NCBI GenBank assembly: GCA_000739535.1
Contig: DF820464.1
Location: 508,359-569,882, forward strand
Origin: Candidatus Vecturithrix granuli
GTDB lineage: Bacteria; Moduliflexota; Moduliflexia; Moduliflexales; Moduliflexaceae
Reading direction: 5' to 3'
DNA: 61,524 bases
The notes beneath the pieces are model-generated. The model worked only from the letters and a program-made list of their open reading frames with translations, did no database searches and was not told the origin of the DNA. A program made the position numbers and the translations under genes. This document shows, piece by piece, positions 12,283 through 52,590 of this stretch; within the stretch, counting starts at the first letter, position 1; each line of letters opens with the position of its first letter.

Positions 12283-12289
12283 TCGCAGA

Positions 12290-12381
12290 ACTCTCACCCC
12301 TGGCCCCTCTCCCACAAGGCGAGGGGAGCAAAAACATCAGAAACTCCCCTCGCCTTGTGGGAGAGGGGCCAGGGGTGAGGG
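12290..12381. repeat. Long palindrome of the CCCCTGGCCCCTCTCCC type
   Basis: About 40 bp of nearly perfect inverted repeat (ACCCCTGGCCCCTCTCCC... and its complement) around a short AT-rich loop. Translated, it gives the LTPGPSPTRRGE-like peptide often seen when this widespread bacterial repeat is read as protein. It separates the fused permease from its binding-protein gene and could reduce read-through. Confidence 0.8.
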
Positions 12382-12398
12382 TTACAGAAATCTTCTTA

Positions 12399-14721: not shown

Positions 14722-15921
14722 ATGGTTATTCATCCAGCCGCTTTAGAAAAACGCATAAAACGACATGTCCGCTCCCAGCAGCAGCGATTCTATGTCATCG
14801 TACCGCCAGGTTTTGAGGCGACGGCCTGCCGGGAACTGGCAGCTTACGATATTCCCGCCGTGCAGGAAGACCTGGGCGGAGTCGCGTTTACCGGTTCCTG
14901 GGAGGCGTGCTGGAAAACGCATCATCGCGCCAGAATTCCTGCCAGAATATTGGTGCGTCTGGCCCAATTTACCTGCACTCGCTTTGAGCAGTTAGAACGT
15001 CACCTTGAGGCCTTTCCCTGGGAACTGTGGTTTCAGCCTTGTCAACAAGTGGCGTTTCAGGTTGACGCACGCCAGTCCGTGCTCTATCATGAAGGCGCGA
15101 TCCAGGAACGCGCCGAACGCTGCGTGAAACGACGCTTACACCCCTGGCAGGCGATTTCCTCCGAGACCGATTCCCCTGATGGCGTGCAGACCATTTATCT
15201 GCGTAATGTTCACAACCAGATGACCGTCAGCCTGGATTGCAGCGGAGAGTTGCTCTACAAACGCGGCTATGACAAGCATGTCGCGGACGCGCCGCTGCGC
15301 GACAATCTCGCGGCTGCCATCTTGCAAGAAGCGAATTTCTCTGAATTTGACATGTTGATAGACCCGATGGCCGGCAGCGGTACGTTCGGATTAGAAGCCT
15401 TATTAGCCCTTACGGAGCGCGGCGCAGGACATCTGCGCCATTTTGCCTTTGAATATTTTCCGGCCTTTCGACCGGCTGCCTATCGCTATTTTCTCAATAC
15501 TGATGTTCCTTCACGTCATGAACGCCCAACTCTCCGGACGATTGTGTTAGGCGATATTCACGATCGCCCGATCACGATCATCCATCATAATCTGCAACAA
15601 CTCGCAGCGCTGGGGGTGGATACAACGCAGGTACGTGTGGAAAAAGCCGACTTTTTCAGCACAGGCGCGGAATTCATCTCTGGTAAGACCCTGGTTGTCA
15701 TGAATCCACCCTACGGAACACGACTCAAGAGTGCCCAGAGCACGCGAGCCTTTTTCGGCAAGATAGGACAGCAGTTGCGCCACAACTGGCGCGGATGCTC
15801 GTTCGCCATTCTTGCTCCGGGAACAGAGGCCGAGCGGGCACTTGCCCTGCCGGTCGCCCGAAAAATCGTCTTTTCGAACGGAGGGATTTCCACCGCCCTG
15901 CTTATGGGCAAGATCAGTTAA
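14722..15921 (+). CDS. THUMP-domain class I RNA methyltransferase (RlmL-like)
   Basis: SAM-dependent methyltransferase of the UPF0020 family, 399 residues. A THUMP RNA-binding region spans about residues 20-175. The Rossmann methyltransferase domain has motif I DPMAGSGTFGLEA near residue 214 and motif IV NPPYGTR near 330. Relatives such as the N-terminal half of RlmL make N2-methylguanine in 23S rRNA; others modify tRNA, so the RNA target is inferred only. The start ATG has a weak upstream ACGGAG. It stands alone between the TIR remnant and a small membrane protein gene. Confidence 0.87.
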   Translation: MVIHPAALEKRIKRHVRSQQQRFYVIVPPGFEATACRELAAYDIPAVQEDLGGVAFTGSWEACWKTHHRARIPARILVRLAQFTCTRFEQLERHLEAFPWELWFQPCQQVAFQVDARQSVLYHEGAIQERAERCVKRRLHPWQAISSETDSPDGVQTIYLRNVHNQMTVSLDCSGELLYKRGYDKHVADAPLRDNLAAAILQEANFSEFDMLIDPMAGSGTFGLEALLALTERGAGHLRHFAFEYFPAFRPAAYRYFLNTDVPSRHERPTLRTIVLGDIHDRPITIIHHNLQQLAALGVDTTQVRVEKADFFSTGAEFISGKTLVVMNPPYGTRLKSAQSTRAFFGKIGQQLRHNWRGCSFAILAPGTEAERALALPVARKIVFSNGGISTALLMGKIS

Positions 15922-35437: not shown

Positions 35438-35682
35438 TTGTCAGGTTTGGGGAACTACAGTGAGAAGAGATAAGAAGAAGGATAGGTTTTTTTGATGATC
35501 GATGTCCCCAGAACATCCTGTTCTTATCTCTTCTCCCTGTAGTTCCCCAGAGTTGTTAAGTTCTCGCAAAACATTCCGTCTCGACTTCGCTCGACGTGCG
35601 GTATTCCGGTCATCGAGCGAAGTCGAGATGACAGACATTCACAGAACTTAACAGCCTTGCTGTAGTTCCCCAAACCTGGCAA
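35438..35682. repeat. Nested palindrome GGTTTGGGGAACTACAG
   Basis: A three-level structure: outer CAGGTTTGGGGAACTACAG and CTGTAGTTCCCCAAACCTG, an inner arm pair GAGAAGAGATAAGAA/TTCTTATCTCTTCTC, and a second inner block bounded by GTTAAGTTCT and AGAACTTAAC that holds TCTCGACTTCGCTCGA. No coding potential. It fills half of the 457-base gap 35417-35873. Confidence 0.65.
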
Positions 35683-37332: not shown

Positions 37333-37479
37333 TCAAACAGGCGCGTACTGAAAGGCCGCCTGGGATGCGCAATTGATCAATCTGACGCCCTCACAGGTCC
37401 CATCATAAGCATCCCAGTATTCGATAAAGACTCCTTCCGGCTCACTGGCCTGAATGATGGTGTTGAACCACACTCCATT
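37333..37479 (-). pseudogene. C-terminal gene fragment, unknown
   Basis: A minus-strand frame of 48 codons (WFNTIIQASEPEGVFIEYWD, then a CEGVRLINCAS end) has good coding character but starts directly after a TAG and has no ribosome-binding site. It overlaps the divergent tail of the HTH gene in another frame. It looks like the last part of a protein brought in by recombination. I cannot name the family. Confidence 0.3.
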
Positions 37480-37976
37480 CTAGAGGTAATTTCCCGGATT
37501 GCCAGGTCTTTGTCACGCGCTCTCTCGTCTCGAAGAGTATCTACGAGGGCAAGGAGTTCATAAAGCTTCCGATCCCTCTTCGCAGCTTTTGGAACACTTT
37601 TATATAATGGCGAGAATTCATACCCTCGACATTCCCCCTCCGGATCAGGCCACACGGGAATCATCTCATCTGTGGGTGTGAGTAAATCTTTCAAGGGCGG
37701 GGCAGCATAACAGGTTGGCAGCCCTCTCGTCAGACTTCCTCGTTCAGGGATATACACGTACTTCACTCCGTAAATTAAGAATTCTTTCAGAGCGGTCTTG
37801 AGAGGGACCTTTCGATACTGATCGAACAGTTTGGCATCCATCGCTCGCTTAATTCCGGCATGAACTTCAGAGGGACTCATAAACAATTCCTGGGAGAGGG
37901 AAGCATAGGACCACGCCTGGTTCTCCCACACAACAAGTTTTATCAAAATAACGACATCTTGAGGTTTTAAGATCAT
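37377..37976 (-). CDS. Winged-helix DNA-binding protein, altered C-terminus
   Basis: Protein of 199 residues. Residues 1-60 form a helix-turn-helix of the kind MILKPQDVVILIKLV with SLSQELFMSPSEVHAGIKRA as recognition region. Residues 60-160 carry the conserved RGLPTCYAAPPL, VWPDPEG and FSPLYKSVPKAA blocks of a widespread small transcription-factor family, often found beside nucleotidyltransferase genes. Members normally end near the LAIREI helix at about residue 162; the last 37 residues here look foreign, so the 3' end was probably replaced. A promoter with a perfect palindrome in its spacer lies at 38029-38057, suggesting autoregulation. Confidence 0.72.
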   Translation of the reverse strand: MILKPQDVVILIKLVVWENQAWSYASLSQELFMSPSEVHAGIKRAMDAKLFDQYRKVPLKTALKEFLIYGVKYVYIPERGSLTRGLPTCYAAPPLKDLLTPTDEMIPVWPDPEGECRGYEFSPLYKSVPKAAKRDRKLYELLALVDTLRDERARDKDLAIREITSRMECGSTPSFRPVSRKESLSNTGMLMMGPVRASD

Positions 37977-38157: not shown

Positions 38158-39243
38158 TTACGTATGATTTCTGAGTAACCCAAAGAACAATTTGAACTTT
38201 TCATAGTCATTCATGAGTATCTCGGCAGCATCATTGACACTTAACGAATCGTGTTCATAGGCTTTCGTGACTCGAAAATAACAATCCCTCATTTTCTTAG
38301 GGGCATACAGCATTAAGAGGACGCTCAAGGCTGATGAGCTGACATAGCCGAGTGGCAGCGTCATGTCAAATCCTGTATTCGGAATGTAAATCCGGTAATC
38401 TGGACACTGGAGCAGATGTTCGACGATTTGCCTATTCATCTGTTCATCGTGAACAAGCCTGGCAAGCAATTGTCCTTCGGCAAGTGAATGGGTTAAGTCA
38501 AAGCCATGTACAATAGCATCTTGATAAAACCCAAGCATAATTGAGGCGCGATGGATTTGTTTTTTTGCCGTTCCGACACGAATCATATAATATGGGGGAG
38601 TATTCCCAAAGTATGACGTATGAAAATATAACGTATGGGCCATGAAGAAGTCTTCAACGTGCTGTTTGACCCTTTCGAAGATGGGGATCACGTGATTCGT
38701 ATAATATGCTCGTTTGCTCTCTGGGGTATCTAATTTTTCAAAATACCGATACACATCAATAAGATCAGCGGGGTCTCCAATATCTTCTGGCAGTTTTATG
38801 GGACCGGTTTCAGCAGGACCAATGTACGTTAAGGGAAGGCCGAATATCTGTTTTCGGGAATTTTGCACCACTTTATATGTATAAAAATGTACTCTATTCT
38901 GTAATGGTGTGTAATTCGCAGCAGTTAAATCGCGTTGATAGTACGCAGGAGCCACTAAAATGACCCTGAGATGTTCCCAATTGATCTGATAAAAACTGAT
39001 TTTCTTGGCAATTTCCTCTTGATAGGACGGCACAATCGCCAAATATTGCGCAGCTTGCCCGACAATATGTCGATCTTTCTTCTTTTTAAACTCAATGATA
39101 AAGGGATTGTGATTGACATCTATCGCAAACATATCAATCCGCAAGCCTTCAATGATGAGTTCCTTTTCAGCTTTCACAAATCCATACGATGTGGCGGCAT
39201 CATAAAAAAAGTCACGGATATGCGCTTCGGTGATTCCTTTCAT
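38158..39243 (-). CDS. PD-(D/E)XK nuclease-like protein (cassette gene)
   Basis: Protein of 361 residues with an N-terminal restriction-endonuclease fold. Asp37 in RIDMFAID, Glu51 and Lys53 in IIEFKKK, and a QxxxY helix in GQAAQYL (63-67) match the RecB/NucS-type motif. The rest is unrecognised. It may be a DNA-cleaving defence or repair enzyme. ATG 39243 follows AAAAGGAG at 11 bases; upstream in-frame ATGs lie inside the attC-like site at 39277-39337. It is the leftmost cassette-type gene of the leftward array. Confidence 0.7.
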   Translation of the reverse strand: MKGITEAHIRDFFYDAATSYGFVKAEKELIIEGLRIDMFAIDVNHNPFIIEFKKKKDRHIVGQAAQYLAIVPSYQEEIAKKISFYQINWEHLRVILVAPAYYQRDLTAANYTPLQNRVHFYTYKVVQNSRKQIFGLPLTYIGPAETGPIKLPEDIGDPADLIDVYRYFEKLDTPESKRAYYTNHVIPIFERVKQHVEDFFMAHTLYFHTSYFGNTPPYYMIRVGTAKKQIHRASIMLGFYQDAIVHGFDLTHSLAEGQLLARLVHDEQMNRQIVEHLLQCPDYRIYIPNTGFDMTLPLGYVSSSALSVLLMLYAPKKMRDCYFRVTKAYEHDSLSVNDAAEILMNDYEKFKLFFGLLRNHT

Positions 39244-39276
39244 CCACTTTTTGCTCCTTTTGGTAAAACCAATATT

Positions 39277-39337
39277 GCCGAACGCTGGCATAAGGCGCGG
39301 CGGCTTTTTGCCGTCGCTCTTCATCCCGTTGTTAGTC
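39277..39337 (-). repeat. attC-like site 1 (61 bp)
   Basis: Read on the minus strand, it starts GACTAACAACGGGATGAAG, has a short AAAAA loop and ends in CCTTATGCCAGCGTTCGGC. The outer AAC pairs with GTT, followed by a bulged stem with GGGATGAAG against CTTATGCC and CGGC against GCCG. Length, ends and bulges fit integron attC sites; the GTTCGGC core deviates from the usual GTTRRRY by one base. The stop codon of the HNH gene lies in its left end. Confidence 0.55.
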
Positions 39338-40114
39338 TGTGGATTTTTTTTGTTTGTCGATAAACTCTCTCACCTCTTCAATGGAATAAGGTGGATACTT
39401 CTTATGAATAATAGCATGGCAGTTTGGACACACCGGACGAAGATCATGTATTGGATCAACTGGGTGGGGGCCCTCCATCATCCCAAGCGGAGCAAGATGA
39501 TGAATATGAATGTAGCCCTCTCCAATAGGACCGTATAAAACATCAAATTTAAATTTGCAGACCTGGCAGACAGCCCCCCAATGTTCAATGCATTTTCTTC
39601 TGGCTATGGGGTTGCGCTCATGCACGTCAACCAAAACTGTTCGAATCTCACCCTCCTGAAGGTCTGTTGGAGCGTTAAGTTCATCTGCGCTTCGAAATTC
39701 AGCCTGCATTTCTATTCGAGCTATCAGGTCTGCTGCCGTTACTTTTTGCTTCACTATTGGCTTCAAAAAACCTCGAGGGACATACCCAAATTCAGTGCGA
39801 GGGTCAATTGGGTTGGTTCGCAGATCTATATACCAATCGACTCGTAGGCGATATTCTGCGTAATCGAACTCGGTGTAGATTAACTTGGATGAGTGGGCCT
39901 GTCCATCCCAGATTTCAAGGACTCGTCCCACAGCGACAATTCCTAACCCGTTGTGGTACATAAGAAGAATATCTGATGGGTCAAGTTTGCTGAGCGGCAA
40001 ACCGTATGTGTCCCTGTCTCCTCCAGAACATGCCACCCCGTGTTCAAACCACAGATCGCATGTTCTCATGTCTTTGCGGACATCTTCATTTGTATTTATG
40101 AACCAATACGTCAT
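39332..40114 (-). CDS. HNH endonuclease with N-terminal EVE-like domain (cassette gene)
   Basis: Protein of 260 residues. The first about 130 residues (MTYWFINTNEDVRKDM, LYHNGLGIVAVGRV-type segments) resemble EVE/PUA-like domains that read modified bases. The C-terminal HNH nuclease has CQVCKF near 181, HIHHLAPL near 203 and HDLRPVCPNCHAIIHK near 223, giving the zinc knuckle and catalytic histidines. Such fusions are often modification-dependent restriction enzymes. It is framed by attC-like sites on both sides; AAAAGGA precedes the ATG. Confidence 0.82.
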   Translation of the reverse strand: MTYWFINTNEDVRKDMRTCDLWFEHGVACSGGDRDTYGLPLSKLDPSDILLMYHNGLGIVAVGRVLEIWDGQAHSSKLIYTEFDYAEYRLRVDWYIDLRTNPIDPRTEFGYVPRGFLKPIVKQKVTAADLIARIEMQAEFRSADELNAPTDLQEGEIRTVLVDVHERNPIARRKCIEHWGAVCQVCKFKFDVLYGPIGEGYIHIHHLAPLGMMEGPHPVDPIHDLRPVCPNCHAIIHKKYPPYSIEEVREFIDKQKKSTD

Positions 40115-40126
40115 TTGTTCCTTTTG

Positions 40127-40265
40127 GGCTAACGCCGGAAATAAAGGGTGTTTGGGAATCTGTGGTGAACGGCAAGAAACCTAACATCATTGATGCCCCT
40201 GGTAAATGGCGAGAAACTGGACGCCACGCGCTCCTCAAACATCTCCTTCATTTCGTTGGTTAGAT
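40127..40265 (-). repeat. attC-like site 2 (139 bp)
   Basis: On the minus strand, starts ATCTAAC (fits RYYYAAC) and ends GTTAGCC (fits GTTRRRY). Between them are imperfect complementary arms, for example AAATGAAGG against CCTTTATTT and GATGTTTGAGGA against TTCCCAAACACC. The size fits the long attC sites of chromosomal integrons. The stop of the next upstream gene falls in the left end. Confidence 0.65.
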
Positions 40266-40269
40266 CAAT

Positions 40270-41054
40270 TCAAAGATTAGCTGTTCAAGATATTCTATAG
40301 TTTCGTCTGTACGATACTCATATTTTATTTGAGCTTCCAAAATGAGTGCAACAATGGCCCTTAAGTAGTCATAGTTCGGAGTAATGATTTTCTTTGTTGA
40401 TTCAGTTGAGACAAAATGTCATACAGTTCACCTGGGAGACCGTAGACTTGTTGATACGATGTTTTTGTAAGTGTTCTAAAAGGAATTGTCGTTTCCACTA
40501 AACTTTGATAAATTCCGTTGTTAGGTTCAGGAAATAACGTAATTTGGGAAACTTCACTTTCAAGATATGTTTGCAGGAGTGGGCGATCGTTTTGCTTATT
40601 CGATAACGGTCTAAATGCTTTATCATAGGTAGGATGGCAACGATTTACTTGATGGATAATAAACTTATTGAGCAGCAGCAAAGCTTTGAAGTAATTTTCA
40701 AAACAGATAATAATGTTTGCACAATTTAATACTGGAAGCCCGGTCGCCCATACCCTCTCAAGAAAAGCGTTTATGGCTGCTGATTCGTGCGGCTTCCCTC
40801 CTTCCTTCATGAGCATCGTATAAAAGCTGCGATCCCATTCCTCTTTAAACCGTCTGCTTTCTGTAATGATTGCCGTTTTTTTTTATGATAGCAATTGACT
40901 GCTCTATCATAAGAAGAGCAATTAACTGCCATCGTTGATCGTCGATATAACACCTTGCATGTCCATTGTTCGCATCAAGCATCATTTTTTATAGAATATC
41001 TTTTGTCTCCGATCTATCCCTCAAATGGCAGATCGATTCAAAAATATCTTCCAT
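40270..41054 (-). pseudogene. Unknown cassette gene, frameshifted
   Basis: A leftward gene of about 260 codons broken by at least two frameshifts and possibly a stop. A start at ATG 41054 (MEDIFESICHLRD) stops early; coding sense resumes at about 41000 and crosses a run of nine A's near 40885, after which the frame ITESRRFKEEWDRSFY continues. A last shift near 40390 restores ITPNYDYLRAIVALILEAQ to the final TAA at about 40270. That TAA sits at the edge of attC-like site 2. Homopolymer runs make sequencing error a serious alternative. Function unknown. Confidence 0.5.
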
Positions 41055-41063
41055 TTCCCCTCA

Positions 41064-41131
41064 TTTAAACAAGCTCAACAGCCCAGGCGGAACGTAGTGG
41101 AGTCGGAGTTGACTGAAGCGACTTGTTATAG
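41064..41131 (-). repeat. attC-like site 3 (68 bp)
   Basis: On the minus strand, from CTATAACAAGTCGCTTCAG to CTGTTGAGCTTGTTTAAA. The AACAAG and CTTGTT arms pair perfectly and the inner TCGCTTCAG/CTGTTGA arms imperfectly. The box sequences are not canonical, but the form matches the other sites. Confidence 0.5.
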
Positions 41132-41425
41132 CGTATCATAGCGATGTATCAACATTGGAATGGCAGTGCTCACCCAGAATTCCGGACTAATGCCACCACT
41201 AGACATACCGCCGTGTTGAAACCTCTCAATGAAAAATGGTTCTTGATGGCTTAAAGGATACCCTGTGGCTTTTTCGTATTCTTCTTCAATGATTCTTTGT
41301 AACTTTTCAGGATTCTCCGGCATATTGGTTTCACTCAGTCGCTCTTTTAATTCACGCCAAAGATACGGATCACCCCGTAAACCCCACTGAACAGGTTCTT
41401 CTTCAAATATTTCAGATACTTTCAT
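41126..41425 (-). CDS. Conserved hypothetical protein (cassette gene)
   Basis: Protein of 99 residues starting MKVSEIFEEEPVQWGLRGDP, with the central segment GYPLSHQEPFFIERFQHGG and an acidic helix-rich middle. I recognise the pattern from small hypothetical proteins in many bacteria, but no function is known. The start is close behind attC-like site 4 and the stop lies at the border of site 3, so the gene together with site 3 makes up one cassette. Confidence 0.72.
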   Translation of the reverse strand: MKVSEIFEEEPVQWGLRGDPYLWRELKERLSETNMPENPEKLQRIIEEEYEKATGYPLSHQEPFFIERFQHGGMSSGGISPEFWVSTAIPMLIHRYDTL

Positions 41426-41437
41426 ATTTCTTGAGAG

Positions 41438-41507
41438 CTATAACGCGCCCTGCTCTAACGAGCGGGAACGTCGTCTGGAGATGCTGAATTGAGCAGCTCA
41501 GTTTAAT
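41438..41507 (-). repeat. attC-like site 4 (70 bp)
   Basis: On the minus strand, from ATTAAACTGAGCTGCTCAA to GAGCAGGGCGCGTTATAG. AAC pairs with GTT, and TGCTC with GAGCA after an unpaired stretch. The next cassette starts right behind its GTT. Confidence 0.5.
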
Positions 41508-41778: not shown

Positions 41779-41886
41779 GCTGCTGTTCGTGCTGTCAACG
41801 GTTTCTGGCAAACTTTTGTCATGTTGTCAATCTTTTTTTGACTGAATATGAAAAAACGCAGGCGAACCGGAAATGATACTGACGGT
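41779..41886. repeat. 108-bp direct repeat, copy 1
   Basis: Nearly the same as 42707-42815, including TGTCAACGGTTTCTGGCAAAC and TGTTGTCAATCTTTTTTTGAC. On the minus strand it offers two TTGACA boxes pointing into the gene at 41766. The two copies bracket the DUF5647/DUF7718-like pair. Confidence 0.75.
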
Positions 41887-41960
41887 CGTGCTCAATACCA
41901 ATGAATAGCCTGCTAAAACAGTCCGCGCCATGCTTCGAAACCGGAAATATCGAAAAATTT

Positions 41961-42532: not shown

Positions 42533-42706
42533 ATTCTCTTCTCTTATCGCGCATTCCGTTGCGCCTGTTCAATGGCTTGCAGCAAACGGCTTCATGCCTG
42601 CTGCGTGCCAGATTGGACAATAGAGCGATCACTCCAGGACATCATGCCCTTCTGAATCTGGCGATCTCTTCCTATGAACGTCAGGAGCGTTCGGAAATAT
42701 GGCACT

Positions 42707-42815
42707 GCTGCTGTTTGGACTGTCAACGGTTTCTGGCAAACTTTTGTCATGTTGTCAATCTTTTTTTGACCGACTATGAAAAAACGCGAATGAACCGGAA
42801 ATAACGCTGACAGTC
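42707..42815. repeat. 108-bp direct repeat, copy 2
   Basis: Second copy of the segment at 41779-41886. On the minus strand it lies upstream of the DUF7718-like gene at about 175 bases and carries a possible TTGACA. The DNA between it and 42532 shows no convincing gene. Confidence 0.75.
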
Positions 42816-43190
42816 AACATTGGAAGATGATTTCGACGGGATCATCATCTTGAGATACATACGAGCATTCCAGACCGACAGAACTGGCACTGTGACAACC
42901 ATCTCCGTGTTCATGCCCATAATTGCCGCGGCTTTGCTGCGGGAATGCCGCGCGGCAAATTTCCCGCAATAACAGCAGTATTTCGGTTAAAGACGCCCAT
43001 TGTTTCCTCAGGCACAATTCATCCATGGTATTTCGGATGGCGGCTGAATACATGACGCATACACCCCGGCTAAGACGGGAATGTGCATGGTTTCTTCGAC
43101 AAAATCATGCACCATCATGCGTTCGAACAAGTGTTGACTCACTTTGGGAGCCATCACACGTTCTCCACATACAGGGCATTCTTCATACAC
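42814..43190 (-). CDS. Small zinc-finger-like protein, apparently split into two frames
   Basis: Two overlapping leftward frames. 43190-43008 codes 60 residues starting MYEECPVCGERVMAPKVSQH (a CxxC knuckle). 43053-42814 codes 79 residues starting MYSAAIRNTMDELCLRKQ and ending in a cysteine- and histidine-containing tail. The two may be one gene broken by a frameshift near 43040, or a pair. No family recognised. Confidence 0.4.
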
Positions 43191-43389: not shown

Positions 43390-43672
43390 GATGAACATCA
43401 TGAGCAGGACGCTCACCCGATACGATGAAAATGACCGGTTTGTACCCCGGACAGCCCTGTCCGGAAAACGTGTCCGGAGACCGGACAGGGCTTGTTCGGG
43501 GGATAAGCATGTTCATAGGAGGTACCATGAGCCTTCGGATCACCAGTCATCATGAAAATGAGATGTAGCGCGGAACTCCAGTTTCGTGCCCCAGTGATAT
43601 GGCAGCGAAACTGGAGTTCCGCGCTACATTTTCAGAGGAGTGAACATGAACAAAAGCTCACCCGGCATGATG
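43390..43672 (+). repeat. Chain of SD-ATG leader modules and palindromes
   Basis: Module units at about 43390-43432, 43512-43560 and 43634-43672 alternate with the GTACCCCGGACAGCC palindrome (43441-43506) and a TGTAGCGCGGAACTCC palindrome (43564-43628). The same order of parts as 23998-24334, but here no gene follows directly; the chain ends in the hairpin at 43672. The stretch 43191-44001 has no gene. Confidence 0.7.
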
Positions 43673-43746
43673 AAACTACAGGAATGACATATAAGCAAGA
43701 ATTTTCTTCGGCACAATTCTTGCTTATATGCCATTCCTGTAGTTTC
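43672..43746. repeat. GAAACTACAGGAAT palindrome, copy 1
   Basis: GAAACTACAGGAATGACATA and TATGCCATTCCTGTAGTTTC with inner arms ATAAGCAAGAATT/AATTCTTGCTTAT. A relative lies at 52481-52557. Confidence 0.75.
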
Positions 43747-43788
43747 ACAGGCAAAATTCTCTCAATATAAAATTTTTAAAAATTTTTC

Positions 43789-52463: not shown

Positions 52464-52480
52464 GACTTGACAAACACGAT

Positions 52481-52557
52481 GAAACTACAGGAATTGATAT
52501 ATAAGCAAAAATCCTTTTCGGAGCAATTCTTGCTTATATATCAATTCCTGTAGTTTT
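52481..52557. repeat. GAAACTACAGGAAT palindrome, copy 2
   Basis: GAAACTACAGGAATTGATATA faces TATATCAATTCCTGTAGTTT with the ATAAGCAAAAATC arm. A relative of 43672-43746 and the end of the first transcription unit. Confidence 0.75.
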
Positions 52558-52590
52558 CAATTTCTGTAGTTTGAAAGGAGAATACGAATT

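Follow-up and report, generated by a model that had tools for sequence, protein, structure and literature searches.

Does a run of small minus-strand genes in the genome of an uncultured wastewater bacterium represent an integron cassette array, and if so, how did the cassettes come to lie where no integrase is encoded? The host, Candidatus Vecturithrix granuli UASB270 of the phylum KSB3/Modulibacteria, has a genome of 8,384,694 bases in 21 contigs. The window, the whole stretch of DNA that was analyzed, covers 61.5 kb of one of them (C20:508359-569882), and the candidate array lies at about C20:547-550 kb. A preliminary description of this DNA had proposed an integron cassette array with four attC sites on the minus strand. 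Our results suggested that the locus is indeed integron-derived, as a cluster of two sites rather than an array of four. The features are collected in Table 1.

Table 1. Features of the candidate array and of the integron system elsewhere in the genome (window positions unless a contig or locus is named).
Feature	Position	Strand	Details
attC site 2	40127..40265	-	139 bp; R'' ATCTAAC (40265-40259), R' GTTAGCC (40133-40127)
attC site 1	39277..39337	-	61 bp; R'' GACTAAC (39337-39331), R' GTTCGGC (39283-39277)
Proposed site 3 (not supported)	41073..41131 (about)	-	score 5.0; reached by 13/60 gap shuffles
Proposed site 4 (not supported)	41438..41507 (about)	-	score 7.5; reached by 6/60 gap shuffles
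Complete gene cassette	39283..40132	-	850 bp; borders set by the R' boxes of the two sites
HNH, McrA-like nuclease gene	39332..40114	-	260 aa
Frameshifted gene of the preceding cassette	40260..40882	-	open segments 40882-40361 and 40418-40260 (six-frame reading)
PD-(D/E)XK-type nuclease gene	38158..39243	-	361 aa
Intact integron integrase	C3:83857		over NCBIfam cut-off
Two tandem integron integrases	C13		over NCBIfam cut-off
Split integron integrases	C14, C18		reading broken between frames
Degenerate integrase relative	C21:1034427-1035338 (L070 427-1338)		beside a nine-site attC array
Resident attC family loci	C3, C13, C14, C15, C18, C20, C21 and others		L009-L013, L051-L055, L069, L071

To examine the sites, a scorer was built on the geometry of 22 attC collected outside the window: 14 come from arrays of the host that carry an integrase, one from a relative (G028), and seven from class 1 integrons of plasmids. 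In all of them, the R'' box is followed by 8-9 bases, a single additional base, and a 6-bp box; an extra A usually comes next, before further stem. The best scores of 100 dinucleotide-shuffled windows had a mean of 23.6 (sd 2.5) and a maximum of 33.1, reached once, and two plasmid attC sites outside the training set scored 38.8 and 37.8. Site 2 scored 44.2 on the minus strand and 19.9 on the plus strand and ranked first in the 61.5-kb window. Site 1, with 33.0 and 21.6, respectively, ranked second and lay at the shuffle maximum; the third-best place of the window scored 23.0. On the minus strand, both sites score above chance. None of 60 shuffles of the respective gap reached the real score of either site, and two same-strand scores of at least 24 within 1.5 kb did not occur in any of 200 shuffled windows. 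Furthermore, the left arm of both sites contains extra unpaired bases, as in known attC.

A second version of the scorer, trained on foreign attC only, gave 41.6 for site 2 against a shuffle maximum of 29.1, and 27.1 for site 1, which is within the shuffle tail (maxima up to 29.1). Known attC left out of this training can also be weak, for example those of an OXA cassette (21.6) and an IMP-1 cassette (32.3). Both sites lie where the preliminary description had placed them. The boxes of site 2 fit RYYYAAC and GTTRRRY completely; those of site 1 fit RYYYAAC in R'' and depart from GTTRRRY at one position in R', with a sequence, GTTCGGC, that was also present in 6 of the 41 attC examined in the host's own arrays. 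Read from their sequences, site 2 is securely a genuine attC, and the assignment of site 1 as attC is well supported by its score, position, and company combined, being only moderately secure under foreign-only training.

Several other tools were tried. Rfam yielded no hit anywhere in the window. With a simple palindrome scorer, site 2 stood out from shuffles and site 1 did not. A short R-box pattern was rarer across the genome than its reversed control and is therefore uninformative. A small covariance model (R1), run unfiltered, placed site 1 second in the window with an E value of 0.19 and did not report site 2; it was set aside as too narrow, as it misses most resident attC. Another covariance model (R2), fitted to resident sites, gave E values of 0.0009 for site 1 and 1.7 for site 2, with inverted repeats scoring higher. 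Its matches in the window were not used as stand-alone evidence, because it also responds to MITE-like inverted repeats there. The presence of such repeats raises the alternative that the hairpins at sites 1 and 2 belong to the dispersed MITE-like elements that are frequent in the host genome and that the hairpin-heavy R2 detects. We regard this as highly improbable: the repeats are near-perfect palindromes, whereas the two sites are imperfect, asymmetric, and different in sequence; each of the two follows a gene stop; and no copies of them outside a cassette context were seen among the loci read.

The near-perfect inverted repeats (GAAACTACAGGAAT...) are found at about 43670-43748 and 52469-52575 of the window and at 15758-15840 of locus L010, and are common to contigs C20 and C13. 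Further inverted repeats lie at about 12289-12383 and 35445-35552 of the window. A separate repeat of about 100 bp (TTTCCGGTTC...GATTGACAACATGACAAAAGTTTGCCAGAAACCGTTGACAG), at 41779-41900 and 42704-42822, precedes the gene at 41766-41503 and the gene pair DUF7718/DUF5647.

The other two proposed sites did not survive the same analysis. The scores of sites 3 and 4 do not stand out from those of dinucleotide shuffles of the same gaps, and neither site is supported as an attC. Single-strand folding predicted a single attC-shaped hairpin for neither of them, and two hairpins for site 4. The motif GTTGAGC (41079-41073) at proposed site 3 could possibly mark the left junction or end of the cassettes. 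A 99-aa gene at 41126-41425 has a relative, 67% identical, in a Burkholderiales MAG (L049); no attC stands beside the relative at that locus, so it gives site 3 no support.

These results are relevant to a second alternative, an ordinary defense island in which small genes of one direction are interspersed with chance or terminator-like hairpins and have no integron history. The chance-level scores of sites 3 and 4, the 99-aa gene relative without an adjacent attC, and neighbors such as the gene at 37377-37976, which match candidate defense profiles and have no attC, speak for such an island. Sites 1 and 2, with their scores, strand bias, extra bases in the left arm, and gene stops within R'', argue against it, and we consider it improbable.

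The arrangement of genes around the two sites follows cassette anatomy. In minus-strand order, the segment consists of the frameshifted gene, site 2, 12 bases counted from its R' box, the HNH gene, site 1, 33 bases, and the PD-(D/E)XK gene, which starts with ATG at 39243. The last stop of the frameshifted gene (TAA, 40262-40260) lies inside the R'' box of site 2, and that of the HNH gene (TAA, 39334-39332) inside the R'' box of site 1. The preliminary description was accurate in reporting small minus-strand genes of one direction, stop and start codons near the sites, and an HNH and a PD-(D/E)XK nuclease as cargo. Cassettes usually cross over at G/TT in the R' box, and a complete cassette can be delimited between the R' boxes of the two sites. 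The frameshifted gene gave no family match and no plasmid relatives. Behind the PD-(D/E)XK gene, no attC was found. TTCGGC opens the segment that carries this gene, a start shared by 6 of the 41 resident cassettes examined; the segment may therefore itself be a cassette, probably a third one that has lost its own attC.

A role in defense is likely for the cargo, with matches that are either weak or made against candidate defense profiles. The HNH protein scored 21.7 bits with Pfam HNH, barely over the cut-off of 21.4, and its C-terminal half matched McrA (6ghc, E 4e-4) and the PADLOC profile mREase_IV for type IV restriction (E 2e-4). McrA-like type IV restriction enzymes are defined by an HNH domain and a domain that reads modified bases; for the N-terminal half, no useful match was obtained, and an AlphaFold prediction of the protein alone was uninformative (pLDDT 34). 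Its plasmid relatives are annotated as HNH endonuclease, and no relatives were present in the searched genome contigs and viral contigs. The PD-(D/E)XK gene matched the PADLOC candidate defense profile PDC-S18 (E 5e-12) and, weakly, the NucS profile (E 4e-4), and had no plasmid relatives. Restriction of phage or other foreign DNA is the probable role of the two nucleases. The gene at 37377-37976, which adjoins the PD-(D/E)XK gene, matched the candidate defense profile PDC-M21A (E 3.5e-41), and its 3' end appears to be altered by a frameshift.

Another genome, G008, has a further McrA-like HNH gene, whose N-terminus differs; 4 bases separate the end of this gene from an attC with a score of 39.8. 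This attC-like site (contig C4, L068 134-215) stands alone right behind the gene, and no close integron-integrase relative was detected in that genome.

Where, then, would the integrase come from? None was found in the window or near C20:547-550 kb, nor were intI and attI beside the array, which would define a complete integron. Clusters in which two or more attC are separated by less than 4 kb, with no integrase nearby, are called CALINs; sites 1 and 2 are 790 bp apart on the same strand with no local integrase match. The search for an integrase that the preliminary description had recommended was rewarded on other contigs, where host proteins exceeded the NCBIfam TIGR02249 cut-off of 265 with 451, 438, and 398 bits. 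The reading given there had been tied to attC sites above threshold or an integrase somewhere in the genome, and two sites scoring above chance as well as integrases were found.

The second C13 copy (L009 7553-8533) has GLQ for GLR and CRSLRH for CHTFRH and lacks the KG-KDR motif. The chemistry of tyrosine recombinases is known, and with these motifs lost the copy should be inactive. Catalytic residues are likewise lost in the C21 relative; the C13 copy stands in tandem with an intact one.

The host is rich in cassettes of its own. A model of the resident attC family, about 111 bp in length, identified at least 60 sites at 60 bits or more in 19 clusters, with both-side changes in 23 of 31 pairs compared to 9-13 in slid controls. 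Two of these sites are on C20 itself (985-994 kb). Integrases are absent near the arrays at C14:354-380 kb and C15:427-457 kb, indicating that CALINs are common in this genome. Ten cassette-borne genes from resident arrays, picked by hand and hence giving no estimate of enrichment, include DNA methyltransferases, a caspase-domain protein, and FtsK/HerA-like ATPase, Cas4-like, and BrxL-like genes. Runs of N within two integron arrays (L009 9189-11467 and L012 11021-12750), which are either assembly gaps or withheld sequence, make attI and the first cassettes unreadable there. Sites 1 and 2 are unlike the resident family. Three relatives (G001-G003) carry attC-like sites of 59-87 bp and 138-145 bp, and both length classes of the window therefore occur in the clade.

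Collectively, these results make it quite probable that the locus is a CALIN in which two attC surround a complete HNH cassette, preceded by a decayed cassette and followed by a probable PD-(D/E)XK cassette without attC, all placed by IntI. First, the two sites share a strand, lie close together, and have the correct geometry and strand bias. Second, both upstream genes stop inside R'' boxes. Third, an intact integron integrase and arrays are present in the same genome, with resident-family attC on the same contig. Fourth, a second McrA-like HNH gene stands beside an attC in G008. Finally, the GC content of the cassette segments is low (39-46%, compared to 47% for the window and 50-51% for chromosomal neighbors). 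Counted against this interpretation are the score of site 1 under foreign-only training, the dissimilarity of both sites to the resident family, the weak or candidate-level defense matches, and the absence of an attC behind the PD-(D/E)XK gene and of any empty site among the sequences searched. The attC sites, the borders of the cassette, the lack of an integrase at the locus, and the integrases on other contigs are read directly from sequence, and from these the mobility of the cassettes, their route of insertion, and their defense function are inferred.

Mechanistically, an IntI encoded elsewhere in the genome would work, or have worked, in trans: it would bind each attC as a folded bottom strand and recombine it at G/TT. 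A chromosomal GTT site other than attI would most likely have been the recombination partner through which the cassettes arrived. A third alternative differs only in this arrival route: a complete integron may once have been present here, with its integrase, attI, and most cassettes since deleted and two sites with several decaying neighbors left behind, which matches the degraded-integron view of CALINs (PMC9024848). Decay at other host loci (the split integrases and the degenerate C21 relative) and the frameshift upstream of site 2 speak for such a leftover, while no integrase fragment was found near the array and the genes on either side show no relation to the integron loci that were read in other parts of the genome. 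We consider it a serious contender, if an unlikely one. The locus is most likely a cluster of two to three cassettes placed by IntI that is now either a relic or mobilizable in trans. A broader and rather doubtful suggestion is that cassettes, among them nuclease cassettes whose attC are of foreign type, are scattered over many places of the chromosome, so that defense genes are kept in dispersed mini-arrays. A few intact integrases, present alongside catalytically dead relatives, would mobilize these mini-arrays in trans.

The kind of system is already known, and our literature search found no report of an integron in KSB3/Modulibacteria; the word "integrase" is absent from the main text of the UASB270 genome paper (PMC4312070). 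The present results add this candidate phylum to the hosts of integrons. The wider system, which comprises 60 or more attC spread over 19 loci plus several integrase copies, is more interesting than the small CALIN of the window. Its dispersed organization, with intact and apparently dead integrases, would suit studies of cassette movement outside attI, and the nuclease cassettes add to the case for integrons as stores of phage-defense genes.

Like known CALINs, the locus has attC separated by less than 4 kb, no integrase nearby but one elsewhere in the genome, and mostly unknown cargo. It differs in its KSB3 host, in the number of its sites, which is just two, and in attC types that do not resemble the main family of that host. 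Insertion of cassettes at attG sites (Loot et al. 2024, as cited in PMC12901181) would explain cassettes far from any attI and may be the route taken here. According to studies cited in PMC12444791, sedentary chromosomal integrons of Vibrio hold anti-phage cassettes. Like those integrons, the present system has small cassettes that include nucleases or restriction-type genes, and its host has one type of attC family genome-wide; unlike them, its host arrays are spread over 19 places, several of them free of integrases, and the defense function is a predicted one.
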